Source: Cinnamomum chago (lineage: Eukaryota; Streptophyta; Magnoliopsida; Laurales; Lauraceae). Taken from it: a stretch of 64,000 nt of DNA. Position numbers and translations under genes: made by a program. The stretch covers positions 69,866,001 through 69,930,000 of the forward strand of contig CP142459.1 of assembly GCA_038049695.1 (NCBI GenBank). The letters run 5' to 3'. This document shows, piece by piece, positions 4,543 through 31,330 of the stretch. A model generated the notes under the pieces. That model was given only the letters and a program-made list of their open reading frames with translations, ran no database searches and was not told the origin of the DNA. Positions within the stretch are counted from its first letter, which is position 1. Every line of letters begins with the position of its first letter.

Positions 4543-6120
4543 ATGGGGTGTCCATGGCTGATGGGCTTGACTTACTCTAATGTCTGTTTTGCCATTGCAT
4601 GCTTCTTCCTCTTGAGAAGCCTTTTGTTTCAAAAGAAAAAATTTCGAGGCAACTGGCCTCTTGTGGGCATGCTCCCTTCCATTCTCCTCAATGTCCATCG
4701 CCTACTGGATTGGGGCGCTGATATCCTTCAAGCCAAGGGGTGCACCGTTTTATTCAAGGGCCCATGGTTTTCGGGCATGAAGTTCCTGGTCACATGCGAC
4801 CCACGAAACCTGGCCCACATCTTGGGCAACGCCCACTTCTCCAACTACAACAAGGGAGATGATTTCACCGAGATCTTTGACATTCTCGGAGATGGCATCT
4901 TGGCCGCGAACGACGGGTCCTGGAAGGTCCAGAGGAAAATAGCCCACTCCCACTTCAGGAACAAGAGGTTCCGCCAGTTGCTCGCCAAGACGAACCAAGA
5001 CAAGGTGGAGAAGGGTCTCGTCCCAGTTCTCCAGAGAGCAGTTGAAGAGGCGAGGCCGATCGACTTGCAGGACGTTATGAAGAGGTTCACCTTCGATGCG
5101 ACGTCCATCTTAGTGTGTGGTGCGGACCCAGGCTGCCTCTCGATCGGGCTCCCCACGGTCCCCTTTGCCCAAGCCCTTGACGACGTCAATGAGGTTGTAC
5201 TGCTGCGCCACACCGTGCCCAAGTTCTGGCGGAAGCTCCTAAAGCGCCTGAACATGGGCATGGAGAAGAAGCATTCCGATGCGTGGGTAATCATTGACGA
5301 GTACATAGAAAACAAGATATCAACCCGAAGAGAAGAGTTGCAGAGTCGAACCCCATCACCCAATAACTTAGAGATAGAAGAGGAAGACGAAGTCGCTGAT
5401 CTCTTGACTCTCTACATGGAATATGAGATGAGGGAGGAAGAAATGGCTAATTTGAAGTCCCCTAACACGTTCCTTCGTGACACCACCATGAACATGCTTG
5501 CAGCAGGGAGGGACACCACGAGTGGAGCCCTCACCTGGTTCTTCTGGTTGCTCTCAAAAAACCCAACTGTGGAAGCCAGAATCTTGCAGGAACTCTCTTC
5601 CATTCCCAATCCCAACCCCACCACAAACAAGCCAAGGGTCTTCACCAGTGAGCAGCTTGGTGGGTTGGTGTACCTGCATGCGGCCCTTTACGAGTCGCTG
5701 AGGCTATACCCCCCGCTTCCACAGAGTCACAAGGGCGTTGTTGCACCAGACATTCTCCCCAGTGGCCACCAGGTCAAACCGGGGATGATAATCATCTACT
5801 CGTTCTACGCCATGGCAAGGATGGAGACGATTTGGGGAATTGACTGCTTGGAGTTCAGGCCGGAGAGATGGATTTCGGAGGAAGGAGTGATTACTCTCAA
5901 CCACAGGGACAAATTCATTGTCTTTAATGCAGGTCCCAGGACTTGCCTTGGGAAGGACGTCTCCATAGCTCAGATGAAGGCTGTTGTGGCTGCTCTTCTC
6001 TATAACTTCGAACTTGAAGTCCTGCAAGATCAGGTCGTCTCTCCTAAAATTGGTATTACCCTTCATACTAAGAACGGGTTGATGGTAAAGATACGAGAAA
6101 GAGCTGTTGCAGCTGCATAG
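4543..6120 (+). CDS. CYP96A: Cytochrome P450, CYP96A-like, copy A
   Basis: An intact single-exon P450 of 525 residues, the usual length and gene structure for CYP96A. A hydrophobic N-terminal anchor (about residues 9-29) is followed by a basic linker and NWPLVGMLP, so it should sit on the ER facing the cytosol. Visible motifs are FKGPWFSG, the I-helix AGRDTT (321-326), ESLR as the ExxR (384-387), PERW, and the heme loop FNAGPRTCLG with Cys468. The closest family I recognise is CYP96A, whose best-known member, Arabidopsis MAH1 (CYP96A15), oxidises mid-chain carbons of wax alkanes using a P450 reductase. The substrate here is inferred and a fatty-acid hydroxylase is possible. The start is the first ATG after the TATA box and aligns with copy B. 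Compared with copy B it differs at about 30 residues, including 328-329 and 389-395, next to the active site. Confidence 0.93.
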   Translation: MGCPWLMGLTYSNVCFAIACFFLLRSLLFQKKKFRGNWPLVGMLPSILLNVHRLLDWGADILQAKGCTVLFKGPWFSGMKFLVTCDPRNLAHILGNAHFSNYNKGDDFTEIFDILGDGILAANDGSWKVQRKIAHSHFRNKRFRQLLAKTNQDKVEKGLVPVLQRAVEEARPIDLQDVMKRFTFDATSILVCGADPGCLSIGLPTVPFAQALDDVNEVVLLRHTVPKFWRKLLKRLNMGMEKKHSDAWVIIDEYIENKISTRREELQSRTPSPNNLEIEEEDEVADLLTLYMEYEMREEEMANLKSPNTFLRDTTMNMLAAGRDTTSGALTWFFWLLSKNPTVEARILQELSSIPNPNPTTNKPRVFTSEQLGGLVYLHAALYESLRLYPPLPQSHKGVVAPDILPSGHQVKPGMIIIYSFYAMARMETIWGIDCLEFRPERWISEEGVITLNHRDKFIVFNAGPRTCLGKDVSIAQMKAVVAALLYNFELEVLQDQVVSPKIGITLHTKNGLMVKIRERAVAAA

Positions 6121-7245
6121 TGCTTGTGCTTGTGGAGTCAATTAAGTCACTGGTCATGGTCATCAATCATCATATTGTGGACCGGCGCTAGCTGTGTTTG
6201 ATTAGTGATGGTCGATCTGTTTGATTATTAGCTGAAAGCAAAAAATAAAAGACCGGCGCAGTGTTTGATTGGTGGGGTGTGTGTGTGTGTTTATTAGCTG
6301 AAAGTAGCTAGAAAAATAGAATATACTTTCATGTAATGTTATGTACGGGATTTTATGAATCAATGTCTGTCTTTATGTTCTTAACCCATGATATCATGGG
6401 TTATGTAAACTATGATATAACAAGATATATCTACGATATCATGGGATTCCAAATATCTCTCTCACGCACACCCCTCAACCCTTGTAGATAACTAAATAAC
6501 CAACATCTTCTACCAAAAATAAACTAACCAATAATGGAAAATAACCATCATCTTCATGGGAGATGGAATTTGATGCATTGATGTTTTTTCAATTGGGTAC
6601 AGGATCAATGTTCCCTTTTGATTGTCTAAATTACTCTAATTAACGAAACTAGCATTGAAGCCCGTGTGATGCCAGGGTAGAAACTTAAATAGTTATTTTT
6701 AAAAAAAAAACTTTTATCCAATCCAATAGATTAGATACTTGACAGAATATCTGAGGAGCATTCCATATATATCATAAGCGCCTACATATTAACTTAATAG
6801 AAGTTCAAAAGAAAATCTCCACCGTGCAAATTCTGAACAAAAAAGTATCTAAAATCAGAAATCTATAATTCAAAAAACTCAAATACATAATTGAAACCTT
6901 TCGAACCAGAAAAAAGATGAATCAAAGTCCCTAACCACATTAGATTAATTTTCAAGTCTGGTTGGAGGGCCATCAAGATACCTACATTTTGATGGGTAAC
7001 GATGGGCCACCCCCCCGCCAGCCCCTTGGATTCAATTTCAAAGAATTAATTTGATGCCCCCTTAGATCTCCATCCATCCATGATCATTCACTATTCATCC
7101 TTTCATGTCCCTTCAATAAAGGCGCCTTCTAACTTTATTAGAAATCAGATGAATTGGTTGCGACCAAATTTTTCATTAGAAAATGGACAACGTCATGGTC
7201 AAATTATGAAAAATTAATTAAGATTATGATAGTGACTTCGATACC
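6121..7245. other. 3' flank of CYP96A copy A
   Basis: Contains the 3' untranslated region, a GT dinucleotide run near 6275-6292, an exact palindrome (6382-6403), and AT-rich DNA up to the DUF247 tail. Nearly the same sequence follows copy B. No other gene seen. Confidence 0.6.
6382..6403. repeat. 22-base perfect palindrome downstream of CYP96A copy A
   Basis: The arm TAACCCATGAT is followed at once by its exact reverse complement. It sits about 260 bases after the stop codon and is kept unchanged in unit B. It may be a transcript-end hairpin or a chance palindrome. Confidence 0.7.
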
Positions 7246-7470
7246 ATGGCAAAAGAGCCGAGCATTTCTTATAATGACTTCTATTTGTCAGATGTTTGTG
7301 AGAAAATCAATAAGCACAGCAAGAGAAGACGGCCTAAATTGGGGGCGTCCTTGGTGCATGATTACTTCAAAAATCCATGGGCACTCATATCTGTTTTTGC
7401 TGCCCTTCTCCTCCTCTTGCTAGCCATGATACAAACCTTCTTCACCTCATTTCCTAAGTTTGCATCATGA
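7246..7470 (+). pseudogene. DUF247 (UPF0481) gene tail, copy A
   Basis: A 74-codon frame resembles only the C-terminus of plant DUF247 proteins: DFYLSDVCEKIN, a basic KRRRPK patch, DYFKNPWALIS, then a leucine-rich membrane helix and IQTFF. Family members are usually about 400-550 residues with this helix at the end. No N-terminal part is visible upstream, so this is a truncated remnant, or a last exon whose partners are lost. The copy in unit B ends in a shifted frame. DUF247 proteins are plasma-membrane proteins whose function is mostly unknown. Confidence 0.65.
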
Positions 7471-8358
7471 AAATTAGATCTTCATACCTTTTGTATTGTG
7501 CTGTAGCTGTAGTGTATTGTGCATCAACGTATGGCTCCTCCTTCTCTACTTGGATACTGCAACTAGTGCATGCGTCCATTATGTATGTCTTCGTTTGTCA
7601 GCTTCTATAAATAATGCTCATGGTTTGATAACCTGAGAATGAAATTTTCTGTCTCTGCTTTTAAAGTGACTCTTAAATTAAAGTTTATTGTGGAAAAATG
7701 GGTGCATGATTGATGGATTATATAAGTCTAGGTAGGAAAAAAAAAAGAAAAAGGGCTAAATCAAATCCTTACATGTCCGGTTCATTAATTTTGTAAAGAT
7801 TCAAATCATTCAAAAGATGTGTGCCCACCCGTGTTTCCAAAAGCGTGCGATAGCTAAGTTTGAATCCTGTTTGGCGGTCCAGCTTGAATTTGGGCCTACT
7901 TAGGTTGGCCTATACATCTCATTTGGGTTAGACGACCGAACCCGGATCTGTGTTTAAGGACTGAAACCCTTAATGGGCCAGATCCAAGCATAGGCTCTTA
8001 AGCTTGATGGACTCTAATTACGCCTATTTTGTATTTTATATGTCTAGGTATTTGATCGATATCTGGTGCAATGATTGAAATGTAACATGGTTGTGATGAA
8101 TCTTATGTGGTCCATTTGGGGCATGACAATAAAATGGTATTCATTTTAGGGAAGAACTCACTTCTTAACTGCATGGTGCATCCACCTTTTCAGGATCTAA
8201 GCTGTTTATCTTCATGTAAAACACTTACAAATATTTTTGCATTATCAACCTTTATCAGCTATAGCCAAAATAAAAAAGAAAAAACCCCCTTAGCCCTTTG
8301 TATGTTTGTAGGCAAAAGCTGTAACCTGTAAATAAGCTCTTAATTTGAACATAAACTT
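7471..8358. other. Non-coding DNA in unit A
   Basis: AT-rich sequence, closely matched at about 32703-33588 in unit B. I see no gene, terminal repeat or RNA. The short open frame from 8107 is not supported by any recognisable protein. Confidence 0.5.
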
Positions 8359-8636
8359 AGGGCTTGTTTGACAAATCTTACCATTGTGAAACAAATCTGT
8401 ATGATATAGATCTGTTTTAAATGGAGCAGTCTGAAATAGATTAACCTCTTTATGAAGTTTAAAATGAACGTCCACAATTGAGTGACCAGATGGTCTATTG
8501 TCATTTCCAAACCGTTTTAAGTCATTAAGTGGTTGGATACAAACTTGCCATTAGAGGTTTGTCAAATGCTGTAATATGTAAATAAGCTCTAATGAATGAA
8601 ATAAGAGCTTAGATTAAAAGTTACCAAACACCCCTT
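8359..8636. mobile_element. hAT-like MITE, copy A
   Basis: A 278-bp non-coding element with inverted ends AGGGCTTGTTTG and, on the other strand, AGGGGTGTTTGG. Its interior word GTATGATATAGATCTGTTT recurs with small changes in unit B and, inverted, near 50390-50420. The ends are of hAT type; I could not settle an 8-bp target duplication. Confidence 0.55.
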
Positions 8637-9313
8637 AAGTTTCTTATGTCCATGTCTCTACCAAAGCACAAACCCTCCAGAAATGCTCGCATTCAGCTTT
8701 AAGGGGCCGGACTATTTGGTCCGGTTTGACATCAATCTGAAAATGTTTCGTGTTGAGAATGAATGAAGAAAACTTATTTGACATGCATCTTGTCATAGAG
8801 AAAATCCGGAGAGATAAAGAGAGGGTGGAGATAGAGATGGAGAGATTTTATAGATGCCCAGAATGCGAGCAAAAAAATATTTGCAACACAAGGGTTTTTT
8901 TTTTAATTCATTCTCAAAATGAAACATTCCAAAATTGTTGCCAAAAAGTAACTTAGCCCACATCTATGAAGGTATGCCATCATCGAGTGATGATCCCGTC
9001 CGATACTGTCAATTTCCACATTTTCAGAATCTCTACAATCAAAAGAGCCATCAAAATTAAGTTCCACCTATCCTGGGGCAGTGGTATCCAATGTACTGGA
9101 GGAATTTTCTAAGACATCCCTATTTTGAGAACCCAAGCCACCTCCCATAGATGTTTTAAATTTAGGCTTTCGGCTTAGGAATTGAGATGGGTCAACAACT
9201 GCATTTGAAAGATATAGATGAAATTTCTGCTTTTCTAAAGGAACTAGGCAATGATAGATCTAGCTTCTCTATCCCCTGTTTTGGCCTACCAGAACCATGA
9301 GGTAAATCTGCTT
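8637..9313. other. Non-coding DNA before the GLR relic
   Basis: No exon is recognised. Earlier exons of the decayed GLR gene may lie here but are too degraded to name. A GAGA-rich purine patch lies near 8800-8850. Confidence 0.4.
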
Positions 9314-9507
9314 GATTTCAAGTGGTTCCTTTGCTGAAAACTATTGAGTGAGGAACTTGGCATTGCAAATCTAGATTTATTTCTCTTGGAAAACAAGAAG
9401 ACTGCATCAGCCCTCCAGAAGGTTCCCAAAACAGGAGGTGATACTGCTTTGAAGATGAACTTCCATATGTACAACTGTTTCTCTCAAGACACTGCAAATT
9501 CAAAATT
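9314..9507 (+). pseudogene. Glutamate-receptor-like gene relic, ligand-domain exon, copy A
   Basis: Pieces match the second half of the ligand-binding domain (S2) of plant GLR3-type channels: GSFAENY, then SEELGIA, ASALQK with PK-GG, and FSQD, in the right order and spacing. The pieces lie in different frames (one base appears lost just before SEELGIA), so the exon is dead. It continues in the C-terminal exon at 21649-22115, which the 11.4-kb retrotransposon has pushed away. A 130-codon open frame crosses this region by chance after decay. GLRs are ligand-gated cation channels. Confidence 0.6.
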
Positions 9508-10171
9508 AAGTATATCCAAACACGAATATGGTTTTTACCTTTTAAAGGGAACACTAATTGCAAGTAGCTTGAACATGTTAGCAGAATATATGGCTAATTT
9601 AATCAGCTCTGTAGTTTGGCCAGGAAACCAGAAGCCTAAAATGGTGGAAATGATATGCTGTTTTTCTCCATTTTTCGCACCAGATAGTTATCAAATGTGG
9701 TTCCTAATATTGATTTGGGCTAGAAGAACTCGATAAGAGTATCACACCTAATTTGATCCCTGATTTCTCTGCAACCTCAACAGAGCACTTAATGGTGGCT
9801 GTCCATTCTGCCAAATATTTCGGAAATTAGCCTATGCCCAAAATCCATTGCGAACTCGTTTTTCCATCAGGCCTATTTTATCTGAGCACTTGAAAATTGA
9901 GCTGTTTGTAAAAAACATTTGTCCTAAAAAGGAAAATTCTACAAAAAGCCCAAAAAACCTCAATAAATGTCTATGTTCAAACTCAAGTTTATGTTGTGTT
10001 CATCCTTCTTGTTTGAAAAATGTACTTATGGATGTAACCAAAATCCATCTGGTGTATATACTGGAAGTATTTTAAGGTTATCTAGTTGTCCACGCATTTG
10101 GGAAATGCGAAAATCATAAAGAGCACAAACAGGATATTTAAAGTGCTAGTAATACATGTATTTATTGTGTA
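9508..10171. other. Intron-like remnant of the GLR relic
   Basis: Non-coding DNA shared with unit B. In the ancestral order it lay between the S2 exon and the last GLR exon. No other feature is seen before the retrotransposon target site. Confidence 0.4.
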
Positions 10172-10176
10172 CATCC
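10172..10176 (+). repeat. Left target duplication (CATCC) of Tat element 1
   Basis: CATCC is repeated at 21586-21590. The empty site in unit B (35413-35417) has a single CATCC in the same context, which proves the insertion limits. Confidence 0.93.
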
Positions 10177-11030
10177 TGTGTGGGGACGTCCCCAAACACC
10201 GAGAAGGTCTAGCCCGAATTCGGCAAGAACATCAGCCAGGGTCTCAGCCACGGCCACGAACCGATTTATTCGCTCACTCCTACATCACTTCGGCTTCGGC
10301 AACTCTATTGTTGGATTCGGTTATTATCAATTGATCTCACTTCTGCTGTACTACTGCCATGACCACTTCGGTCTCGGCTGTGCGCCAGTAGAGGTGTCAC
10401 AAGCCAACCAACCAAGGCGGGGCCTGACAGTCACGTCCCATGCAGGACACGTGGCGGGATGCAAGCACGCGCTGACAGGACAGATATGTCGTCCCCGCCG
10501 TCCATCCTCACCAAATCCCTGACAAAGCCACATCCAATGGCTATAGCCGTATTGGGGCAGGGCCCGAGACAGGATCCGATGGGATCTCAGCAGCCAGCAA
10601 ATCAGGGGGAGATCAGGCCCAATGTGACTAGCATTCAATGCAGTATGGACTGATCGGACCCTCATTAAATGCAATGTGGGCTATGATGGATCTTCATTAA
10701 TGACTCTATGGGCTGATAAGACCCCAGTAGTCAGATCACTGGGCCCGTTCACGCAGGCGCCAAGGAACTCTCTCATATAAGGTAAGAAACCACTCAGAAA
10801 AGAGGTACGCACACTTACATGCAAGGGCCCTCTGAACGTTCCTCTACTCCTTTTCTCCAACCTGCACTCACTCAGGCATCGAAGAGTCATGCGCTGCCCA
10901 CAGCCAGGGTCCTTTGACGCCCTCTTCTTATCCCCTTTCAGGTCCCCAGATCAAGCAGTTCTTCCTCTGGTCTTTTGGATAAGTCCCTTGAAGCACCTCC
11001 CTAACCTTGTGAGTATTTTCTGCACTTACA
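10177..11030 (+). repeat. 5' LTR of Tat element 1
   Basis: 854 bp, the same length as the 3' LTR. It opens TGTGTGGGGACGTCCCC and ends GCACTTACA directly before the primer-binding region. CTCATATAAGG near 10773 is a candidate TATA region. Confidence 0.93.
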
Positions 11031-11077
11031 ATTGGCGCCGTCTGTGGGAAACGATTTGCATAATCTTCCTTATCACC

Positions 11078-13070
11078 ATGACGAGGAGAGCTGCGAAAGG
11101 CGGAGAAACATCCAATACGAAATGCGCGGGACCGTCGTCTGACCTCCTTCCTGCCAAGAAGAAGACTAGGAAGAAACTAGTTTCAGAGGTCTACGACGAA
11201 CGTAATTTCGTCCGTATCGACGTTCAGGAGCAGAACCTTCGCCCGGAGTCACCTTCACGTGGACCAACGACTTCTCTCCGGCAGGGAGAGTCTCGGCAGC
11301 AGCCTGGAGGAGGTCTCCTGCTGAGTCGGGTTCGGCGGAGTAAGTCTCCAGCAGTTGACGGACCGACTCCCTCTGATCATCCGGAGGAGGCTGATGACGA
11401 AGATTATAATCTCAGTGATGACTTCGACTCCACCCTTGAGGAGATCAGGGCACAGAACGATACCATCAAGGAGCAGGACGCTCTGATCCGCCAGCTCCAG
11501 CAGCAGCTGGAAAGAGCTACGAGTTCAGTAAGGCATCAGCAGCAGCAGCAGCAGTCGCAGCGACAACACGAGAGGAGGGTTTCTCGTGGCAGTCGCACTG
11601 TTTCCCCCGTGGAAGACCTGAGGGATCACTTGAATAAGAGGCGTGACCGAACTCGAGATGAAGGCTCGAGTGCCAGCCGCAGCTACTCGAGGAAAGCGTC
11701 GGAGACCATCCCGGAGAACAAATATCATGACCAAGAGTGGTTGGACGAGCGCATAAGGAGAACGGTTCAGCGCAATCTGGAGATGGCTGGTCTCGGCCGA
11801 GACCAACGGGACGCTTGTTGCGACTCCATTGATCTCGGCGCGTCTCCCTTCTCTCGCGACATCAGGAGATATCCACTGCCGAAGAAGTTTATCGTCCCGA
11901 AGTTCGTCACGTACGACGGGACCTCGGATCCGGCTGCACATCTCAGGCACTTCTCTCAAAGGATGTCTGTCTTGGGGGACGAGGGCCACCTGAATTGTCG
12001 AGTCTTTTCCTCCAGTTTGGGAGACCTCCCCCTGAAATGGTTCTGCGCGCTCCCTGAGGAGTCCATTTCAAGTTGGTAGCAGCTCCAGCAATCCTTCATG
12101 AAGAAGTTCCAGGCCTATAGAATCCTGCAGAAAACGGATGCGGATATTATGGCCCTGAAGATGAAGCAAGGGGAGAACGTCACCCAGTTCGTGAAGGGAT
12201 TCTGGACGGTCTACAGCCAGATCGAAAGTTCCAAAGATGAGGTAGCCATCTTCGCGTTTCAAAATGCCCTGTTGCCAGATAGTGACATTCGCAAAGATCT
12301 GGCCAGGAACCCGGTGTCCTCTATAGCGGCGCTCATGTCCATAGTCAACCGCTACATCGCCCAAGAGGACGACCAGGTCCGGGCTCGGGAAAACCATGGC
12401 GCCTCGCAGAAGGACCGAGGTGAAAGGCCCTCCAAGAAAGATAGGGGACCGTCCCGAAGAGATGAGTCCCGAAGAGATGAGTCAGACAGACGGTGGGCGC
12501 CAGCCAGCTCGGCGAGGGCTCAGGCATTCACCTCGAGAAAAAGCAAGAAGCCCAGGCTGTCCGAAGATACGTACCGGACAGTCAACACGATCTTCAAGGA
12601 GCCCATCCACAGGATCATGTATAAGATCAAGTCGAGGCCGTACTTTAGCTAGCTGGAGCCCATGAGAGGGGATCCGTCTTCCAGGGATCAGAGCAGGTTT
12701 TGTGCGTACCACAAGCAGAGCGGCCACAAAACTGAGGAATGCAGGATACTGCAGTCACATTTGGAAAAGCTTGTCCAAGAAGGACACCTGCAAGAATTCG
12801 TCAAGGCAGACACCAGGGCCGACGCCCGGAACACGTGCCGAGACGAGAGGGGCCACGACAGCGACGGGTCGGAGAAAATCATAAGCGTCATCCACTTAGC
12901 TCCCCCACCTAAGGGTAGTAACCGAGCACATGCCGAGGCCAGGCGTTCCTCCCACAGCGAGCGGGTCATGGCCACCGAACTCGGCTCAGCTTTGAAGAAG
13001 GTCCGAGGGAGAGGCGCGAAATCAGGTTCTCAGATTCGGACTTGGAAGGGGTCCAGCATCCCCACAACGA
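11078..13070 (+). mobile_element. gag region of Tat element 1
   Basis: Fossil capsid region. The N-terminal part is basic and low in complexity, then comes an acidic and glutamine-rich stretch, then the conserved retrotransposon gag core (around 11880-12380, with PKKFIVPKF and YDGTSDP). It ends with a Cys/His motif, FCAYHKQSGHKTEEC (about 12700-12745), that serves as a zinc-knuckle-like segment in Tat elements. Broken in a few places. Confidence 0.8.
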
Positions 13071-13520
13071 CCCGCTGATCGTCACCTTGAAACTGGACTG
13101 CTCTGAGCAGGGTGTGAAGGACTGCACCGTGCAGAGGGTCCTCGTCGACCCCGGTAGTTCAGTCGAGATCCTCTACTTCGATGGTTTCCGAAGGATGGGC
13201 CTGACGGAGAAGGATCTGCAGGAGGCCCGGATTCCCCTCATCGGCTTTAGCGCCAAGCCAGTGTACCCCAAGGGAAAGGTGGCGTTCAAGGTCGAAGTCG
13301 GTGGCGCATCCATCGTGACAACCTTCTTAGTGGTCGACGCACCCTCACCCTATAATGCCATAGTGGGCAGGACCTGGCTCCACAATCTGGAGGCAGTCCC
13401 TTCCACTCTCCACCAGAAGCTGAAGTTCCCATTGGAAGGAAAGAATGGCAGAGTAGAAATCGTCACAGTCCGAGGAGATCAACAGACAGCCAAGCAGTGT
13501 CTGACAGCCGTCGTGTCCGG
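13071..13520 (+). mobile_element. Aspartic protease region of Tat element 1
   Basis: Retropepsin-type fold signature: VLVDPGSSVEILYF carries the active-site aspartate motif in a Tat-like variant, followed by YNAIVGRTWL, the usual second conserved block. It would process the Gag-Pol precursor. Confidence 0.75.
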
Positions 13521-13779
13521 AGAGAGAGAGCCCAAGGAGGTCAACATGGCCGAGATGGAGAAAAAGTTGAACGAGGTCGGCCAGGATCTGGAAAAGAAGA
13601 GCGTGGAGGACCTGACCGAGGTCAGGATCAACTCAAAAGATCCGGAACGGTTCTTCCTGCTCGGCAGTCAGCTCGCGGAACCAGAGAAGTCTGAGCCGGT
13701 CCGGTTCCTGATGCAGAACAAAGATGCCTTCGCCTGGACGCCTCAAGAGATGCTCGGCATTGACCCAGAGATAATATGC

Positions 13780-15060
13780 CATAAACTGAATGTGGACCCT
13801 AACCATAAACCTGTGATGCAGAGAGCTCGCAGGACTGGGGTACCACAAACCGAGGCTGTAGTCGAGGAGGTGGACAAATTGCTCGAGGCTGGCGTCATCA
13901 GAGAGGTCCAGTACCCGACCTGGCTAGCTATACTGTGGTTGTCAAGAAGAAAACTGGCAAATGGAGGGTGTGCGTCGACTTTACCGACCTCAACAAAGCT
14001 TGCCCCAAGGACAGCTTCCCCCTACCGAAGATCGATCAGATGATCGATGCCACTGCCGGACACGACAGTATGAGCTTCCTCGACGCGTACCGCGGCTACC
14101 ACCAGATACCGCTGTATGGGCCGGATGAAGAGAAGACAGTTTTCATCACACCCAAGGGCACGTATTGTTATAAGGTGATGTCGTTTGGGCTGAAAAATGC
14201 AGGAGCCACCTACCAGAGACTCATCACCAAGATGTTCCACGGGCAGCTCGGCAAGACTGTTGAGGTCTACATCGACGATATGGTAGTCAAGTCCAAGCAA
14301 GCGCAAAGCCATTTGGCAGACCTGGCTGAAGTCTTCGGCACTTTGAAGAGGTTCAAGCTCAAGCTCAATGCCTCCAAGTGCGCCTTTGGTGTCGGTTCCG
14401 GCAAATTTTTGGGAAGCTTGGTCACACGCAGAGGGATTGAGGCAAATCCGGATCAGATCTCGGCTATCCTCAGAGTACAAATTCCCACCTCGGCAAAGGA
14501 GGTCCAGAAGCTCACCGGAATGTCAGCCGCACTAAATCGGTTCATCAGCAGATCCTCAGATAAGTGCCGGCCTTTCTTTCAGCTTCTTAGGAAGAATTTT
14601 AAATTTCAGTTGACTCCGAAATGTGACCAGGCCTTGCAGGAGCTCAAGGCCTATCTTTCTTCACCCCCTCTACTATCAACTCCAATTCACGGAGAATTTT
14701 TGTACTTGTATCTGGCGGTCTCGGATCATGCGGTGAGCTCGGTCCTCATCCGAGAAGAGGATAAGGTCCAAAAACCAATCTATTATACGAGCAAGACCCT
14801 CATTGATGCCGAGACCAGATATTTGCCACTAGAGAAGCTCGCGTTGGCGCTCGTTAGCGCCTCGCGGAAGCTCTCTCATTACTTCCAAACTCACACCATA
14901 GTGGTTGTTACGGAACATCCACTTAATTCTGTTTTCAAAAAGGCTGACTTTTTAGGAAGAATCTCCCGATGGGCTGTCGAACTGGGGCAATACGAAATTC
15001 AGTATCAGCCCAGGACCGCGATCAAGGCCCAAGTGCTGGCAGATTTTCTTGTAGAGTTCA
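13780..15060 (+). mobile_element. Reverse transcriptase and RNase H region of Tat element 1
   Basis: Reverse transcriptase blocks are visible in order: KWRVCVDFTDLNKACPKD, FLDAYRGYHQI, MSFGLKNAGATYQ, and the catalytic YIDDMVVKS (near 14270). The Ty3-type RNase H follows, with YYTSKTL and a region ending near QVLADFLVEF. These copy the element RNA into DNA and remove the RNA strand. Confidence 0.88.
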
Positions 15061-21585: not shown

Positions 21586-21590
21586 CATCC
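21586..21590 (+). repeat. Right target duplication (CATCC) of Tat element 1
   Basis: Matches 10172-10176; after it the sequence of unit B resumes without loss. Confidence 0.93.
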
Positions 21591-21630
21591 AAAGGCCTAT
21601 GGATTCCATTCATATTTTCTAAGTTGGTGA

Positions 21631-22115
<485 letters not shown>

Positions 22116-22781
22116 TTCTCAGCTAAAAATTTGAATTGCTCCTTGAAATGCATTTACTTTGCTTTATATTGTAGATTATTATACTTGGTCAGTCACTTCC
22201 ATTGTACAAGATAGTATTAAAGATGTTTCAGTGACATGAGAACGAAAAAGCAGTGTTAAGCAGATCTAAGGTGGGGCAAATTGAAGAATCAAACAGAGGC
22301 AGCACAAATACTGAGAGAAGGCAAATGGAGAAGACAAGCAGAGACGGTATGAACATGAGCACTTCACCTCATTCATTCTATGCTGAAATTGTGGATTGCT
22401 CCTTAAAATGCATTTAAATTACTTGAGATTGTTGTGCTGGAAATGAGTTGAATGAACTCATTGAGTTCATTGAGACCTCATAAGCCACTATTGCATAAAC
22501 CACCCTCTTCTTCACTTATTTCTAATTCTAGTTAAATGAGGACTCACTTGATCCAATTCAAGTCGAATGGAACCGCGCCTAATACGGAAGTTGACGTACT
22601 CCTCGGGATACACACATTGGTTTCGCGCCTAATACGAAAGTTGACGTACTCCTCGAGATACACACATTGGTATCAAGATTGGCCGTATTTGACAAAATAC
22701 ACGATAATTAATATTTACGAAAAAGTCCTTATTTTCCTTCGTTTGAGTCTAAAACCAACTAAATTACCTTAATCTTATTCA
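22116..22781. other. Non-coding DNA with local duplications
   Basis: About 22238-22420 is an imperfect second copy of the GLR tail region (21985-22150). A roughly 50-base direct repeat (AAGTTGACGTACTCCTCG context) lies at about 22570-22676; unit B has one copy only. No gene seen. Confidence 0.6.
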
Positions 22782-22784
22782 TTA

Positions 22785-23160
22785 CACTACAAAAAAAATG
22801 TCTTAATGAGTCACTTTTAAAGTGTCATAAAAAGTGGTTTGTGTCGCTTTTCTGATTACTATGCAAGCGTCTTATCTGTCGGCGTCACTCAAAGTTCGCA
22901 AAAGCGTCTCAAGAAATACATATGTTGTGTCAGTTTCTGTTATCAAAGTGACACAAAAAAATGGTTACTTGTGTCACTTTAAACCCAAAAGTGACACTGA
23001 AATAACTTAGAAGCGTCACAAGAAAGATAACTTCTGTCATCAGTTGTGACAGTTTCCATTGAAGCGAGATACAATCAACATCTGTAGCAATGATCAATAT
23101 GTAATATAAGTGACACAAGTAGTCATCAGTTGTGACAGTTTCCATAGAAGCGAGATACCA
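22785..23160. repeat. Left subterminal repeat zone of the CACTA element
   Basis: Repeated GTGTCACTTT, AAGTGACAC and AAGCGTCAC words in both orientations over about 370 bases, plus a nearly repeated CATCAGTTGTGACAGTTTCC. Such zones are transposase binding sites in CACTA elements. Confidence 0.75.
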
Positions 23161-24176
23161 TCCATTTTTTTTTTAAATAAAAATGCAATATATACATTAC
23201 TAATAACATGCTGCAGTATGGATACACTTTCAAATCACTAAACTTGCCTTACAAAAGATGCAAAAAGAACATTCAATAAGAACCATTTTATTAATTGGAA
23301 ATTAATCACCATTCACATTAAGGAACGTACTTGCTCATCCACGCATGCGTAACCAAAGCGTCACGACATAATCCAAAACCTTCACAAAAGCATCCAAAAA
23401 AAGGCAAGCTACATTGTAAACAATTTCCGGAAATCCCTAACTAACCAAAATTAACTTAACCTAATTAGTAGATCCACTTAGCAAGAGGCATTCCATCTCA
23501 GTTTAATTAAGTTCTTCATTCACCTACAAAATAATAACAATTTGACTATGTATCAATAATATAATCAAGTAAGAAGGAGAGTTTAACCAACAATATCAAG
23601 GATTCATGTTAAAGAGAAAATATTTTGTCACTAGAGAAAGAGCAATTGAAAAACTAGCAGTTCACATGTCATAAGATCATAGTAGCAAGCAAACTAGGAG
23701 CAATCAATAATTCACTAATATGATGACCTAGTATTCATATCACCATCTACAACTAACACTCAATAATACTAATACTCCATTGATCTCACAATTCCGCATC
23801 AGGTTAGGTTTCATGTTGTGTTGTATCATCCACATAATTGTTTACAGGGTGTTGGTGCAAACATTTTTAGCAGTCCATGAACAAATTATGATATGGTTAT
23901 GAACTTTCAAACAATATGAACTTAGCATTATAGTTCAACCAAGGGGTAGTCTCCGAGAGTACAGCAGAATTCAGTGGTCTGTTAGGGAAATACTTGATTG
24001 CTATATGGAAGTAAAGTTCACTGATCCAAGAAAGGAGGGGGTTAACTTATATGCACCACACTCATCCGCTGTTTCATTGATTGGGATCAAGTCATAACCA
24101 ATGGGTGCAAATTCCACTCTCTTGGCTCTGGGATTAAAGAATTTAACTCATAATTAGTAAAAAGGCCACTCTTACC
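23161..24176. other. Interior of the CACTA element without recognisable genes
   Basis: AT-rich sequence between the left subterminal zone and the first captured exon. It may include captured intron or untranslated DNA. I recognise no exon. Confidence 0.4.
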
Positions 24177-24677
24177 CTTTGCTTTGCGACATCTACTGTT
24201 TTTCCTGACAAAAGGAAAAACAAAAACAATAAAAATAATTTTACCAAAAATAAAAAAGTAAAAATAAGGGAGCTCTAAAGTTGTTTCTTTCCGAGTAGCA
24301 TTAAGCAATTAATCTATCAAATATACTAACCAGTTGATATGTGCCTCTTCAGAAGACGTTGCATTGCTTTATCAATGTCTACTTCAAGAAACCTTGACAT
24401 AAAATAAAAAAAAATGAGCAGAAACACCCAAGATGTTTAAACAACCTAGTCATAAACCAAAACATAAATGCTTAGCTCTTAATTACTCAGCGACAATTAA
24501 GTACGATTCAGGGCTATAGAACTATGACGACTAAATAAGTATCAAGGGGGGGGGGGGAGTGGGGGAGTGCCCGAGGAAATGTGCAAGTTACCACTTTCAT
24601 CAAATGTAGAAGAAATATCCTTCCAAGCCCCTTCTTCTAGGAACAAGTAATTTCCTTCTACTATCACTACTTTGTGC
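24177..24677 (-). pseudogene. Captured fragment of a uridine-kinase-like P-loop kinase gene
   Basis: Three exon pieces on the minus strand, in gene order: about 24677-24595 (HKVVIVEGNYLFLEEGAWKDISSTFDE), 24393-24331 (FLEVDIDKAMQRLLKRHIS) and 24203-24177 (GKTVDVAK). They match the C-terminal half of plant proteins annotated as putative uridine kinase or phosphoribulokinase-like. Splice sites remain: TGACAG before the first, GTTAG after the second, TGTCAG before the third. Introns were therefore carried along, so capture was from genomic DNA and not from mRNA. The nucleotide-binding N-terminus is absent, although 24840-24960 may hold a badly decayed earlier exon. Not a working enzyme. Confidence 0.75.
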
Positions 24678-25379
24678 CTGTCAATGTGACAGCCCAATAA
24701 TGAGTAACTAAAATATAGAGTTACAATTCTGAAATCAAGGTAGAGATTACGGAACACTAAATAGTCAGAATGGTTCTATAACTTAAAAGGAAAAAAAAAA
24801 AGAAGGAAGTAACAAAGATTTCCATGATAAATTTTTCTCCAATTGATAACTCCACACTGGCATAGGAAAGGATTGACATACTATGAAGCGCCCATCCAGG
24901 TACAACATAACCACATTAGGATTTGCCGCAGAATTTGATCAAATGGGTCATCAATCAAAAGCTACAGTATGGGGCTGTTTGATTGATTGGAACTGCTGGA
25001 CCAAACTTGCCTAGGGTAACAAGAGAACCATGTTTGGTTCTCCCACTGAATGCCCACCTATTTCTAGCACTAGAGTTGGTGTACAGCGAAGAAGTCCACA
25101 AACTGAGTTACCATACCCCAGTATCATAAATGAATGTGCATGGGTAAGCGCGCACACACACATGTGGACACAGGCACAAGACACATTCATGCATGTAAGC
25201 ACGCACATAAATGGATCTGCAAAGATACATGCAGAAATGCACAAACATGGACGTGAACAATGGGGTGCACCCAAATCCAAAACAGAGAAAATCACTGAGA
25301 CTGATGGAACCACACTGTTTATACAAAAATAAAACAACACCTAATACCATAAAAGGCTCAATCTCTATTCTCTGCTATT
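24678..25379. other. Interior of the CACTA element between the two captured fragments
   Basis: Contains a possible decayed kinase exon on the minus strand (about 24840-24960) and a CA-rich tract (about 25140-25260) that gives overlapping chance frames on both strands. No firm gene. Confidence 0.4.
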
Positions 25380-26277
25380 AAATCAGAGCCCACATATTTG
25401 TACATGAAGCCACACTACTGATATACAACCCATCTTCATTTCCCTTCTCAATGTGCTGTAGAAGCCTCACATCTGCAACATTATAGTGATACCTAGAACA
25501 CAGATGGAAAATGTTAACATTGCTTCTATAGTTGATCACAGATGGAAAATGTGAACATTGCTTATATAGTTGACCATCTCAGATGCAACAATAGGCAATA
25601 TGAAGCACAAACCTTTGCTTCATAGGCCGCCGCGCATTGTAGACACTAATCCATTGGGTTGCAGGCATCCCCATTCGAACCTTTTTCTTTGGTTGTTCAT
25701 CATCATCATCATCATCCATTGTCAGCCGACCTCGTTTATGACCTACCTGATAGATAAGCTTTACACCATATAACCACATATTAGATGAGTTTGAAACCGA
25801 GTGAGTTGAATAATTTTATTGATAGCAGCCAGCTACAATTCCTCACACACAAAAGGCACATGGATAAACCACAGAATCAAGGACATAAAAGATACATTCT
25901 GAGCACCATCTGTGTTGATTGGTCTTATATCTGGATTTGGGCTACTATTCCATCAAACAGGGAAATGTATTTTGCATAGTTTGGCATCTCATCAAACTTC
26001 AAGTTCACCACATACTCGATAAATTGCCTGAATGGCTGTGGGCAAAAGCAAGATAAAGTCTCCGGAGATGTCGCCATCTTCTTTTTGCAGACAAGGAAAC
26101 CTTTGTTTTCTCCCTATGGGCATGTGAAATTAGAGGCATGAGTACTACATAAAAAGTGAGATAAGGCTTTGATGATAAGATGATGATGAGAGTAAAAAAG
26201 ACCATCATACGGGATGACTAACAAAGGTTTTTACATGACTTACCTGGTATCCTTGCCATGGTAGGCGACCACGAAGA
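25380..26277 (-). pseudogene. Captured fragment of a MUT9-like/HD16-type casein kinase I gene
   Basis: Four exon pieces on the minus strand: about 26277-26244 (LRGRLPWQGYQ), 26113-25897 ([18 protein letters not shown] to INTDGAQ), 25758-25613 ([12 protein letters not shown], an acidic run, [27 protein letters not shown]) and 25492-25380 (YHYNVADVRLLQHIEKGNEDG). These are collinear with the end of the kinase domain and the following conserved region of plant casein-kinase-I-like proteins (HD16/EL1, MUT9-like kinases). Canonical donor and acceptor sites survive, so it was captured as genomic DNA. The second exon has lost two bases after DGIV, shifting the frame, and the piece stops right after ALI. 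The catalytic core is missing, so it cannot be an active kinase. Confidence 0.85.
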
Positions 26278-27840
26278 ATTTTTACATAATACTTCTTGGA
26301 ACAACTACTAATTGATAATTAGAAAAATGATTGCCCATTTGGTACTTCAAGCTTAATATTTATAAATTGAATGCTATTCTATCAATCTATACTAAATTTG
26401 AACAAGTGGTCTCCATAAACCTTGCAAACTTTACCGCAATGGTTGTGTGAACACTAAAAAAAATGCCATCACGCAAGAAAACAGATAAATTTTTGGGTTA
26501 ACATTGATTTAATTTTGTCTGGAGGTCCTTGACATCCCTTTGACCATGCCAAGGAGCACAAAAGGGGAATTAGGGAATGCCTCAAAGCCACGGGATTTCT
26601 AAGCCTTGACACTCAACACTCCTTGACATGGACGGATGAAAGTTGGATACAGAGAACTCCAAGTAAACCCATCTGAAAGACCCATCTCTTTTCCATTTTT
26701 TTCTCTCTAAGTAAGCATACAAAGAACTCCAACCAAAGTGTTGTCTGCCACATGTGGATTTGAGAAAAAAAATATTCTATGAATATGTCTATGAACGGTT
26801 GGGGTGCAAATGCCCTTCTTTATGAACATATCAGCACCGTTGCTTACTTTGCCCGATATCTCGTCCATTTTCCTATTGAAGTCCCATTATTACAAATACA
26901 AAACTTAGAAGTAATAGTTACACAAAAGAGTGATACATGAATATAAACATATAAAAGCCTGACCACAATCTGCTTCAAAATTGTAACCTAAATGACATGA
27001 TTTAAAATTCTATATGCCCAATATAGGAAATCAAAGTACAAGTTTTGAGCAACTGCATGAAGCAATTATAGTACTAAACAAACCATAAGAAATCTATAAA
27101 AATTACCTAAAATTCTGTAAACTGCAAAAACCCCAAACCAGATTGAACAAAACCCAGAATAAAAATCTCCACATTTAAAATCCCTCAAAGCCCAAAATCA
27201 GAGCCCCAACAGAAGTCTCCATCAAATACCCTAAAACCTAAAATCAAAATCCTGGATATAATACCCCTTGAATCCCTAAGTTTCTTCTATAAAAAAAGTC
27301 CACAAAGATCAAAATAAAAAACTCCAAGAGAAGAGCCCCTAAAATCCCCCAAAACCTGCAACCAAAACGCCAAAAATTCCGACCCCAAAAGCCCCATAGT
27401 CCGATTAAAATCCCAAAACCCCCCAAACCAAAATAGCAACAAACCCCCCAACATCAAAACGGAAAGACTAAATGTATACAGAGAGAAAGATATGCATAGT
27501 ACTCTTAATATCTACTATGCATACAGAGAGAAAGATATGGTGAGAGAAAGAGACTTGGTGCTTGTGAGCTATATCTTGACTTAGGAACTGAGAGGGAGAA
27601 GCTGCAGAGCAGAGAAGAAACGCATAACAGAAAGAGAAGAAGAAGTCCGGACCATAGAAGAAGAGAAGAAGCAGCAGTCGAAGGGCCACCCTAGAACGCA
27701 GGGGAGGCGATGAGGGTACAGGGCGTCAGGCGATAGGAGAAAAGGGGCGGGAGCACGGTTTTTCTTTTCTTATATGTTTTTTAAGGAAGGCTTTTGGGCA
27801 GGTTTTGTTTTGTTGTGGTGAGGGCCTTCCTTCATCACCC
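26278..27840. other. Right interior of the CACTA element
   Basis: No exon recognised. Read on the minus strand, about 27760-27450 is pyrimidine-rich with CTTCTTCTCTTTCTG, like a plant 5' leader, and is followed by a T/G-rich intron-like stretch (27430-27120). This could be a captured promoter and leader that would drive the fragments downstream; that is inference. A short direct repeat (ATACAGAGAGAAAGATATG) lies near 27475 and 27518. Confidence 0.4.
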
Positions 27841-28119
27841 AAAGAAAAAAACAACTGTCACTTTTGTTTAGTGGGGGAAAACAATCCTCAATATTTAGTT
27901 TGGATTATCTTAAAAATTTGCTCCGCTAGTGTCACTTTGAGAATAAAACGAGACATAGATTTGTTTTGTGTGTCGTGTTAAGAAAAGTGACACAACAAAC
28001 CTTCTCCTCGTTTACTCCTCCTCTAAAGTGACACATCAGACCATACTGTGTCACTTTATTGTAAAAGCGACACAAAAGCTCAATTTAAAAGCGAGACTAA
28101 AAGTCTTTTTTTTGTAGTG
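27841..28119. repeat. Right subterminal repeat zone of the CACTA element
   Basis: Several AAGTGACAC, GTGTCACTTT and AAGCGACAC words, mirroring the left end, up to the terminal TTTTTTTTGTAGTG. Confidence 0.75.
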
Positions 28120-28121
28120 TT

Positions 28122-28345
28122 ATCACTTCATTAAGTCTAAATCAATCATTTGAGACTAATCTCATTGAATTTGCTCATTAACCATCATTAGCTTAATTAA
28201 ACACGATTAATTAACAATAAGCATATATATAACACAAACTTTTATTAACAAGCAAGCAAGCATTACACAATAGCCACTTGGGATCTGCAAAAAAATACAG
28301 AAATGATGCAAATGACTATCTTCTTATTATTGTCCTGGGTCACTT
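28122..28345. other. Non-coding DNA of unit A after the CACTA element
   Basis: AT-rich, matched at 36572-36796 in unit B. No feature seen. Confidence 0.4.
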
Positions 28346-28935
28346 TGTTGGAAATATGGCTTCAATCCACCAAAGCCCAGCCACTATTATTGACTTCCAC
28401 TGAGAGCTACCTCAATTGTGCATGTGGTGCACTGGCACTAGATATGACTCCCAGATATGGAGCCGAAAAATGAGACTTTGAAGCTCACAATGAGTTGTGA
28501 GCCACAAGTGGATTACTTCCACATGCATCATTAAATGCTTTGTCCCCCTTGGAACTCTTATAAAAGGAGGGAGGCTATGGAGTGGAAGTAGAAGGGAAGG
28601 GAAAAGAAGAGTGGTCAGAAAATGTAGTCCCTTTTGCAGCGGTGTTTCGTACACCATACAAGAGAATGAGTGAGGTATTGAGTGAACACTAGGATTGGGA
28701 ATGTGAGAGAAATCTCATATGTAGTATACCTCCTCTTGTATATCTCCTCTCTAGTGAATTACTTATCATCTTTCCTTGTGGACATAGCCCTCAATGGGTG
28801 AACCACGTAAACCCTCTGTGTCTCTCTTTATGTGTGTGGTTTGTTTGCATGTGTTCAAGCATCTTGCATCTAGACCATCGATTACTGGTATTTCTGCTGT
28901 GCCACTTTTCTAAACAAATAAGTGGTATCAGAACC
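28346..28935 (+). mobile_element. Ty1/copia LTR relic with primer-binding site, copy A
   Basis: Starts TGTTGGAAATATGG and ends near 28915. TGGTATCAGAACC (28923-28935) follows, complementary to initiator methionine tRNA as in copia elements. Inside are CTTATAAAAGGAGG (TATA region) and the CCACGTAAA word typical of the copia LTR transcript-end region. No copia gene follows; only the 5' LTR and leader remain. It predates the tandem duplication because unit B has it too. Confidence 0.75.
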
Positions 28936-29513
28936 CACCAAGACGCTTCCGCACAACACACTTGTGTAAACGGACTTTGTTGATAGTAGACAAAGCTTAA
29001 ACACTACATAAGACACACATGAAACTTGGATAACTAGGACATAAGTAAAAGCATTGACTGTAGTAGCTTCAACATTCTCATTCAATAGGGGAAATACTTT
29101 TCAATATTTACTAGCCCTGACGCCATCGCCATATCAGTCACTTCCCTGAGTTCCCTCACCACTACCTTTTTTTATTTCCCTTCAATACTAGATTTCCCGT
29201 CAATGCATTGACGTTACTACCACCACTTACTCAAGTTCTCGCTTCGACGTTTGCTCCACCATATCCTTAAAACCTTCAGTACCTGCACTAATATTCACTT
29301 GGACCAGGGGTTACCTCCAGTACCTGCACTAATATTCCCTTGGACCTGGGGGGTTGTTACCTTCCGCATCATACTGGGTACTGCCCTGTGGCATCAGCCA
29401 TAAAATGGTTAGGTAGTTGCAATATGAATCCATAAATAGGTAAGACTCAATTGATATTAGTTGTTTTTTTTTTCTCCTTTGCCCAGTGAAAAACGGAACT
29501 TCATGGCATGTAA
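28936..29513. other. End of unit A
   Basis: Non-coding DNA up to the duplication junction. A short direct repeat (CCTGCACTAATATTC with a CTTGGACC word) occurs near 29285 and 29325. No gene. Confidence 0.45.
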
Positions 29514-29523
29514 ATGGGGTCCA
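29514..29523 (+). other. Duplication junction with 10-base microhomology
   Basis: ATGGGGTCCA occurs at the unit start (4319), at the A/B junction (29514) and at the unit end (38047). Sequence left of the junction matches that left of 38047, and sequence right of it matches that right of 4319. This is what a duplication by misaligned repair or unequal exchange at a short homology leaves. Confidence 0.85.
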
Positions 29524-29646
29524 TCGGTCGATCCAACGCTCCAGGCACTTTTTTTTTTCCAACGAAAAGGTGCGCACATCATGTCTGTGGCGTTGCGGAT
29601 TTAATGATAAGTAAATAAAATGGGTATAGATAGTCACCTCACGAAC

Positions 29647-29653
29647 TATAAAA
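29647..29653 (+). promoter_or_regulatory. TATA box of CYP96A copy B
   Basis: TATAAAA lies 106 bases before the ATG at 29753. Compared with copy A the spacing is longer by about 17 bases, in part from repeats of GATC (GATCGATCGATCGATC near 29665-29679) just after the expected start site. Confidence 0.65.
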
Positions 29654-29752
29654 CTACTCATTGATCGATCGATCGATCCAGCGTTCTCCTAATTTATTGC
29701 TTGCTCAAGCCCTCTATCCTTTTCCATCTCCTTCCTTTCCTTTCTAACAACA

Positions 29753-31330
29753 ATGGGGTGTCCATGGCTGATGGGCTTGACTTACTCTAATGTCTGTTTT
29801 GCCATTGCATGCTTCTTCCTCTTGAGAAGCCTTTTGTTTCAAAAGAATAAACTTCTAGTCAACTGGCCTCTTGTGGGCATGCTCCCTTCCATTCTCCTCA
29901 ATGTCCATCGCATACTGGATTGGGGCGCTGATATCCTTCAAGCCAATGGGTGCACCGTTTTATTCGAGGGCCCATGGTTTTCGGGCATGAAGTTACTGAT
30001 CACATGCGACCCACGAAACCTGGCCCACATCTTGGGCAACGCCCACTTCTCCAACTACAACAAGGGAGATGATTTCACCGAGATCTTTGAAATTCTCGGA
30101 GATGGCATCTTGGCCGCGGACGACGGGTCCTGGAAGGTCCAGAGGAAAATAGCCCACTCCCACTTCAGGAACAAGAGGTTCCGCCAGTTGCTCGCCAAGA
30201 CGAACCAAGACAAGGTGGAGAAGGGTCTCGTCCCAGTTCTCCAGACAGCAGTTGAAGAGGCGAGGCCGATCGACTTGCAGAACGTTATGAAGAGGTTCAC
30301 CTTCGATGCGGCGTCCATCTTAGTGTGTGGTGCGGACCCAGGCTGCCTCTCGATCGGGCTTCCCACGGTCCCCTTTGCCCAAGCCCTTGACGACGCCAAT
30401 GAGGTTATACTGCTGCGCCACACCGTGCCCAAGTTCTGGCGGAAGCTCCTAAAGCGCCTGAACATGGGCATGGAGAAGAAGCATTCCGATGCGTGGGTAA
30501 TCATTGACGAGTACATAGAAAACAAGATATCAACCCGAAGAGAAGAGTTGCAGAGTCGAACCCCATCACCCAATAACTTAGAGATAGAAGAGGAAGAAGA
30601 AGTCGCTGATCTCTTGACTCTCTACATGGAATATGAGATGAGGGAAGAAGAAATGGCTAATTTGAAGTCCCCTAACACGTTCCTTCGTGACACCACCATG
30701 AACATGCTTGCAGCAGGGAGGGACACCACGAGTGCAGGCCTCACCTGGTTCTTCTGGTTGCTCTCAAAGAACCCAACTGTGGAAGCCAGAATCTGGCAGG
30801 AACTCTCTTCCATTCCCAATCCCAACCCCACCACAAACAAGCCAAGGGTCTTCACCAGTGAGCAGCTTGGTGGGTTGGTGTACCTGCATGCGGCCCTTTA
30901 CGAGTCGCTGAGGCTATTTCCCCCGCTTCCACTTAATCACAAGGGCGTTGTTGCACCTGACATTCTCCCCAGTGGCCACCAGGTCAAACCGGGGATGATA
31001 ATCATCTACTCGATCTACGCCATGGCAAGGATGGAGACGATTTGGGGAATTGACTGCTTGGAGTTCAGGCCGGAGAGATGGATTTCGGAGCAAGGAGTGA
31101 TTACTCTCAACCACAGGGACAAATTCTTTGTCTTTAATGCAGGTCCCAGGAGTTGCCTTGGGAAGGACGTCTCCTTAGCTCAGATGAAGGCTGTTGTGGC
31201 TGCTCTTCTCTATAACTTCGAACTTGAAGTCCTGCAAGATCAGGTCGTCTCTCCTAAAACTGGTATTACCCTTCATATTAAGAACGGGTTGATGGTAAAG
31301 ATACGAGAAAGAGCAGTTGCAGCTGCATAG
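29753..31330 (+). CDS. CYP96A: Cytochrome P450, CYP96A-like, copy B
   Basis: An intact single exon of 525 residues, collinear with copy A and about 94 percent identical in protein. It keeps the membrane anchor, AGRDTT (321-326), ESLR (384-387), PERW and the heme loop FNAGPRSCLG with Cys468, so it should fold as an active ER P450 acting with P450 reductase on long-chain lipids, as CYP96A enzymes do. Differences from copy A include linker residues 32-36 (K32N, F34L, R35L, G36V), I-helix positions 328-329 (GA to AG), residues 389-395 (Y389F, Q394L, S395N) and the heme-loop T467S. PPLPLNHK here is closer to the PPLPFNHK I recall from Arabidopsis MAH1 than copy A's PPLPQSHK, suggesting copy A changed at that site. 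The substrate is not proven. Confidence 0.93.
   Translation: MGCPWLMGLTYSNVCFAIACFFLLRSLLFQKNKLLVNWPLVGMLPSILLNVHRILDWGADILQANGCTVLFEGPWFSGMKLLITCDPRNLAHILGNAHFSNYNKGDDFTEIFEILGDGILAADDGSWKVQRKIAHSHFRNKRFRQLLAKTNQDKVEKGLVPVLQTAVEEARPIDLQNVMKRFTFDAASILVCGADPGCLSIGLPTVPFAQALDDANEVILLRHTVPKFWRKLLKRLNMGMEKKHSDAWVIIDEYIENKISTRREELQSRTPSPNNLEIEEEEEVADLLTLYMEYEMREEEMANLKSPNTFLRDTTMNMLAAGRDTTSAGLTWFFWLLSKNPTVEARIWQELSSIPNPNPTTNKPRVFTSEQLGGLVYLHAALYESLRLFPPLPLNHKGVVAPDILPSGHQVKPGMIIIYSIYAMARMETIWGIDCLEFRPERWISEQGVITLNHRDKFFVFNAGPRSCLGKDVSLAQMKAVVAALLYNFELEVLQDQVVSPKTGITLHIKNGLMVKIRERAVAAA

Follow-up and report, generated by a model that had tools for sequence, protein, structure and literature searches.

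Two intact, intronless cytochrome P450 genes of Cinnamomum chago, here called copies A and B, lie in a 64,000-nucleotide stretch of DNA (C9:69866001-69930000 of a 1.06-Gb assembly; hereafter the window) and belong to a young, mosaic, CYP96-like P450 tandem array. We favor, at a probability of roughly 0.6, the reading that this array evolves by relaxed constraint and gene conversion with diversification of the predicted substrate pocket on top, strongest in A, and that the substrates or products of its copies are probably diverging. An original prediction, made from the letters of the window alone, had held that A and B diverged toward different substrates with a ratio of replacement to silent substitution rates (dN/dS, or omega) near 2. 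The CYP96A name of A and B is our working assumption, taken from that prediction; under the nomenclature rule, membership in the subfamily requires identity above 55% with its named members. The two genes are as follows.

4543..6120, plus strand: copy A, intronless cytochrome P450 coding sequence (CDS) of 525 amino acids; Pfam PF00067, 194.8 bits.
29753..31330, plus strand: copy B, intronless cytochrome P450 CDS of 525 amino acids; 97.7% identical to A in DNA; PF00067, 193 bits.

Both profile scores exceed the curated cut-off of 22.8 bits, which places A and B in the cytochrome P450 family, and A carries the P450 core motifs (I-helix AGxDTT, as AGRDTT at codons 321-326; K-helix ExxR at 384; and heme-binding FxxGxRxCxG from 461, with Cys468). 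A genome search with A, in which the best candidates were scored and which gives a lower bound with further copies possible, found at least five intact copies (A, B, C, D, and E) and at least two broken ones (p1 and p2) within about 337 kb of the same chromosome (69.81-70.15 Mb of C9; C, D, E, p1, and p2 are loci L011, L012, L013, L018, and L019). The five intact CDSs diverge from one another by 1.6-3.7%. E is inverted relative to the array, and in-frame insertions near codons 278-280 add 6 bases to D and 3 bases to E. Pseudogene p1 has two 2-base deletions within the reading frame, while the match of p2 begins at codon 170 and contains three internal stops. No alignment to the first third of p2 was found in the 1.5 kb of DNA upstream of it; p2 is reliably aligned only from about CDS nucleotide 566, and its earlier columns support no conclusion. 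Four paralogues of 72-74% identity, F to I (L014 to L017), served as the outgroup. In copy C, Ser replaces the first Thr of AGRDTT (codon 325), which by P450 convention we presume to be the catalytic Thr.

The case for pocket diversification comes from the position of the replacement changes. Substrate recognition sites (SRSs) 1, 4, 5, and 6 were placed by their spacing from WxxxR, AGxDTT, ExxR, and the heme Cys, on the CYP2C9 ranges of Gotoh. In the excerpt of PMC5944999, CYP2C9 residues 361, 362, 366, and 367-369 fall in SRS5 and residue 477 in SRS6, which agrees with these ranges; the excerpt of PMC5872075 gives no SRS residue ranges. The predicted sites in A that carry the argument are:

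5470..5526, plus strand: predicted SRS4, codons 310-328, motif-anchored; a change private to A at 328.
5707..5739, plus strand: predicted SRS5, codons 389-399, motif-anchored; A and B differ at 389, 394, and 395.
6049..6072, plus strand: predicted SRS6, codons 503-510, motif-anchored; A and B differ at 503 and 509.

Among A to E, 63 codons vary in amino acid, and these are concentrated in predicted SRS4-6 (13 of 38 codons, versus 50 of 487 elsewhere; p = 0.0002), whereas silent-variable codons number 0 there and 22 elsewhere. Site by site, replacement-variable codons make up 4 of 19 in SRS4 (p = 0.27), 4 of 11 in SRS5 (p = 0.03), and 5 of 8 in SRS6 (p = 0.0009). The A-B pair alone, scored with a slightly wider SRS6, gave 6 of 40 codons in SRS4-6 versus 24 of 485 elsewhere (p = 0.02). 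When the mask of sites was shifted along the gene, the true position alone among 525 reached the SRS4-6 count, and random placement of the blocks yielded p = 0.0002. A fixed-site codon model, run like all codon models here with our own Python scripts (not PAML) and a limited number of optimizer steps, estimated a cluster omega of 2.64 for SRS4-6, significantly above 1 (p = 0.007), and of about 0.7 elsewhere; at the same sites, omega on older branches was 0.37-0.43. The result held with a single tree in place of two (SRS4-6, p = 0.0034; with SRS1, p = 0.04). A, B, and E were each removed in turn, and the SRS4-6 result was no weaker after removal of B or E.

For the gene as a whole, omega is raised in the cluster but not above 1. 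When each half of the gene was given its own tree, it was 0.84 in the cluster versus 0.34 on older branches (p = 0.00018), and the cluster value did not differ from 1 (p = 0.46). The terminal branch of A had an omega of 1.44, which differed neither from 1 (p = 0.48) nor from the other cluster branches (p = 0.22), and the null branch-site model put a fraction of 0.342 of sites as relaxed to omega 1 within the cluster. In a survey of non-cluster P450 pairs that covered 33 of 38 loci, those with a CDS of at least 400 codons, the seven pairs with dS below 0.1 had omega values of 0.15-0.81. One of the close pairs, L024/L025 on C1, has a dN/dS of 0.81 at a dS of 0.015, and 0 of its 15 replacements lie in SRS4-6.

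The copies are mosaics. Across A to E and p1, 181 of 406 pairs formed by 29 informative CDS sites are incompatible, and at these informative sites the incompatibilities lie in blocks along the gene, as recombination predicts. Neighboring sites agreed beyond shuffled orders in our own test of the pairwise homoplasy index type (k = 1, p = 0.0157; k = 2-5, 0 of 10,000), from which gapped columns, including the two 2-base deletions of p1, were dropped. Trees of the two gene halves disagree. With columns gapped in A, B, or D dropped, A has the base of D at all 6 informative CDS sites through nucleotide 609, and from nucleotide 814 onward it has that of B at 9 of 10 (p = 0.0028). Adding 224 bp of upstream DNA gave p = 0.058 for informative sites and p = 0.0094 for all sites, with the split at -36/-22. 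In a GENECONV-like longest-run test, B-E (p = 0.0004), C-p1 (p = 0.0016), and E-p1 (p = 0.02) were significant, and no pair including A reached p = 0.05 (lowest, 0.107). Gene conversion is the probable agent of the mosaicism. We also considered a crossover origin of A, with its 5' portion from a D-type copy and its 3' portion from a B-type one, and rejected it because nested duplications (the A-B one from about -230) explain the flank pattern more simply, with conversion required only within the CDS.

Several results count against the favored reading. Taken by itself, SRS1 is not enriched (3 of 22 codons, p = 0.74), and adding it to SRS4-6 lowers the cluster omega to 1.96 while p rises to 0.037. 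Without A, omega in SRS4-6 falls to 1.82, which no longer differs significantly from 1 (p = 0.17) yet exceeds that of the rest of the gene (p = 0.011); an omega above 1 in these sites thus depends on copy A. Among the changes of A in SRS5, two are double changes at adjacent bases, a kind that can look like selection, and leaving out codons 389 and 394 weakened the SRS4-6 result to p = 0.018 (p = 0.067 with SRS1). Subsets of sites gave p = 0.058 for SRS4 plus SRS6 and p = 0.15 for SRS4 plus SRS5. The older paralogues F to I vary at 5 of 8 SRS6 codons, so SRS6 may be lax in general. The SRS ranges were applied after the variable positions had been seen and after the hint in the original prediction, and the mapping covered SRS1, SRS4, SRS5, and SRS6 of the six sites. 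Unguided branch-site tests with paralogues of the same species, one of the checks proposed with that prediction, gave no significant result (p = 0.24 for the cluster and p = 0.083 for A). The CDS crossover test, once sites private to one copy were included, was likewise not significant (p = 0.55). On balance, we regard the SRS4-6 enrichment as moderate evidence for pocket diversification.

The favored reading implies the following course. An 8.5-kb tandem duplication separated B from the upstream DNA of A. Most of the coding sequence would then have come under partly relaxed constraint, in which single substitutions are near neutral and frame-breaking indels are still selected against, while short gene-conversion tracts would shuffle variants among the copies, so that many A-B differences would be inherited blocks. 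On top of this, replacements would be favored at the SRSs surrounding the heme pocket, with A the strongest case; selection is the probable cause of the pocket enrichment, and the array would probably be diversifying in its substrate or product profile. A bolder version can be put forward only tentatively: the array would be a pocket-shuffling one, in which conversion passes blocks between copies (one even with a pseudogene), selection fixes new residues in SRS4-6, and A, which has upstream DNA of its own, already oxidizes differently from B to E. The array offers a natural set of five near-identical P450s in which replacements in predicted pocket segments are about three times as frequent as elsewhere, and swaps of short segments between A and B could directly reveal the residues that set the substrate or the position of attack.

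That relaxed constraint acts by itself, with redundant copies drifting, conversion shuffling neutral variants, and the pocket enrichment owed to chance or to laxer constraint on the pocket, is possible though doubtful. The cluster omega of 0.84, the lack of any significant departure of omega from 1 across the 10 pairwise comparisons of intact copies, the fraction of 0.342 of cluster sites at omega 1 in the null branch-site model, and the broken state of two of the seven copies found all agree with it, as does the variation of F to I in SRS6. Against it stand the 13 replacement-variable and 0 silent-variable codons in SRS4-6, with omega above 1 there, and the behavior of other P450s at the same sites: F to I show no significant enrichment over SRS4-6 (18 of 40 codons versus 174 of 485, p = 0.31), and seven pooled control pairs show a deficit (6 of 266 versus 190 of 3501, p = 0.02). 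For this control, 8 of 11 non-cluster pairs were used (L003/L004, L014/L016, and L015/L017 were left out) and seven were pooled, L001/L004 being kept out so that L001 was counted once; dS is near 0.2 in two of the pooled seven, L021/L022 and L035/L036. The A-B alignment also argues against drift alone, since the CDS contains no indels where 4.9 would be expected from the flank rate (P = 0.008), and the pair is therefore not simply drifting. The absence of stops is uninformative here (P = 0.26).

It is improbable that positive selection has driven A and B apart over their whole length since the duplication, with dN/dS about 2, as the original prediction had it. Its counts proved exact, and both frames are intact: the two CDSs differ at 37 bases, comprising 32 changed bases in 30 replacement codons and five silent codons (203, 298, 339, 402, and 521). 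The Nei-Gojobori method assigned 6.5 silent changes to 350 sites and 30.5 replacement changes to 1225 sites (dS 0.0188, dN 0.0253), for a ratio of 1.35 (Fisher p = 0.54), and codon maximum likelihood gave an omega of 1.33 with an interval of 0.68-3.17 (p = 0.52 against 1). The ratio falls below 2 because the double changes at codons 389 and 394 hide silent steps. These point estimates and the 1.44 of the A terminal branch lean toward selection; the interval includes 1, the A branch does not depart significantly from it, and whole-gene positive selection between A and B was rejected on these grounds. The further claim that replacement sites had outpaced neutral DNA is not supported, as dN was not significantly above the divergence of the pooled 3' flank (98 of 5196 bases; p = 0.21). 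In addition, 14 of the 37 differences are common to other copies. The predicted clustering after ExxR holds for raw changes (six private to A within 41 bp, p = 0.00065) and becomes weak when adjacent changes are treated as single events (p = 0.075). Both outcomes named beforehand as refuting the prediction were seen in part: the dN/dS of the pair does not confidently exceed 1, and a third paralogue, p1, has most of the linker changes. Divergence toward different substrates is thus not established as whole-gene A-B selection and keeps some support cluster-wide, through the concentration of replacements in SRS4-6. Estimating dN/dS by eye from two copies is misleading if the copies are mosaic and have few silent changes.

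A and B arose through a tandem duplication of 8.5 kb whose start lies about 230 bp before the ATG. The parts of the region are, in order:

234..4542, plus strand: upstream DNA of A, common to D (L039/L012) at 3.2% divergence; not upstream of B beyond about -239.
4319..10176, plus strand: first part of the A unit (from -224, across gene A, to 4 kb into the 3' flank), matching 29514-35418 at 96.5%.
10177..21585, plus strand: long terminal repeat (LTR) retrotransposon in the A unit; LTRs at about 10177-11030 and 20732-21585; 5-bp target duplication CATCC.
21586..22784, plus strand: 3' flank of the A unit past the LTR element; 1.4% from B.
22785..28119, no strand assigned: CACTA-type DNA transposon in the A unit; terminal CACTACAAAAAAA inverted repeats; TTA target duplication.
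28120..29525, plus strand: segment X, 3' end of the A unit and directly upstream of gene B; matches 36570-38058, with 63 of 1402 bases different.
29514..36580, plus strand: B copy of the tandem unit, without either transposon, by sequence match to the A unit.
36570..38058, plus strand: segment X', 3' end of the B unit, by sequence match to X.

The matching parts of the A unit (4319-29525) and the B unit (29514-38058) run in equal order. The left edge of the duplication lies 224 bp before the ATG of A and 239 bp before that of B, and the junction shows microhomology (shared word ATGGGGTCC). Given this start, B lacks the upstream DNA of A, which differs from that of D at 136 of 4292 bases over 4.3 kb, and has segment X as its distal upstream DNA. 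The LTR and CACTA-type elements entered the A unit after the duplication, as the B unit carries uninterrupted sites for both. Reverse transcriptase and RNase H domains lie at 13935-15800 inside the LTR element. In the proximal upstream DNA of B (29514-29752), differences from A are mostly private to B and include a longer GATC run near a TATA-like box. With segment X upstream and the proximal 223 bases diverged, the expression of B may differ from that of A.

Divergence between the units is uneven. The original prediction of flanks about 1.8% apart holds on the 3' side, where 82 of 4045 bases (2.0%) differ before the LTR element and 16 of 1151 (1.4%) after it (pooled, 1.89%), and breaks down on the 5' side, where only 223 aligned bases are common and 19 differ (8.5%). 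The CDSs stand at 2.3% and X-X' at 4.5%, and the two LTRs of the element in the A unit differ at 30 of 852 aligned bases (3.5%). Relative to the flank, the excess is significant for X (p = 2e-7) and for the LTRs (p = 0.004); excluding CpG sites leaves both results in place. The LTR pair looks older than the A-B flank split that its insertion must postdate. The middle of the unit may have been homogenized by conversion after the LTR insertion, or transposon-like DNA may mutate faster; we rank neither above the other. Segment X has many repeat matches elsewhere.

That the A-B differences are blocks imported by gene conversion from a third paralogue, the alternative raised in the original prediction, is very improbable as a full account, although parts of it stand. 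At the 37 differing sites, A matches p1 at 7, B matches C and E at 4, B matches E at 2, and A, D, and E oppose B, C, and p1 at 1. The predicted cluster of changes in the linker (codons 32-36) exists, and three of its four changes (codons 32, 35, and 36) are common to p1, which also shares those at 72, 215, 339, and 421. The closeness of the A-B 3' flanks relative to X-X' or the LTR pair likewise looks like homogenization; X has its repeat matches elsewhere, and transposon DNA may mutate faster. On the other side, 18 of the differences are found in A only and 5 in B only when A to E and p1 are compared, and the block of A at codons 389-402 occurs in none of the ten matches listed in this assembly for a query of A codons 373-416, the best of the others being 95% identical. 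An assembly artifact, in which alleles were placed in tandem, is scarcely credible despite the divergence of only 1.6-3.7% among the five intact CDSs, for the window contains no N, the 6-9 kb homologous blocks have clean junctions, transposon target duplications, and different neighbors, and E is inverted.

Related systems place the array among P450s whose history is already known in kind. CYP96A15 (MAH1 of Arabidopsis; CYP96 family, CYP86 clan), a midchain alkane hydroxylase of wax synthesis according to the part of PMC4766306 available, has the P450 core motifs in common with the array, the CYP96A label of which comes from the original prediction. The same excerpt describes CYP96T1 of Narcissus as a phenol-coupling P450; it differs from A and B by subfamily and shows that a CYP96 can shift to a quite different substrate class, so that the family is already known in both wax and alkaloid chemistry. 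The available portion of PMC4482195 describes how gene duplication gave rise to the CYP71AJ bloom of Apiaceae; its authors discuss the divergence in terms of SRSs and test it by dN/dS. The sites on which both methods agreed fell outside the SRSs, and the authors considered them probable false positives; one method by itself picked single sites in SRS2, SRS3, and SRS6. That bloom and the array are both P450 blooms by duplication; in the array, the excess falls on SRS4-6 taken together. Conversion has also shaped P450 paralogues, as the excerpt of PMC7830528 reports for CYP6B8/CYP6B28 and CYP6B9/CYP6B27 of Helicoverpa zea, which are insect genes, in contrast to the plant genes of the array. Elsewhere in the family, partial text of PMC3912173 places a functional residue of CYP96B4 in SRS2, and that of PMC10496300 names CYP96A10 once, in camphor tree. 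Among the titles and abstracts listed by a literature search, none describes a CYP96A array under selection.

Inverted pieces of the A/B 3' flank (90-93%) occur at two places within C9:69694177-69722372, about 150-175 kb from A. No P450 was found among the matches listed there, and these pieces are perhaps remnants of further units. Within the window, a 631-amino-acid open frame with a reverse transcriptase domain (42636-44531) marks another retroelement, and a tandem array of 92-bp units, with seven overlapping 276-nucleotide copies, occupies 52970-53797.

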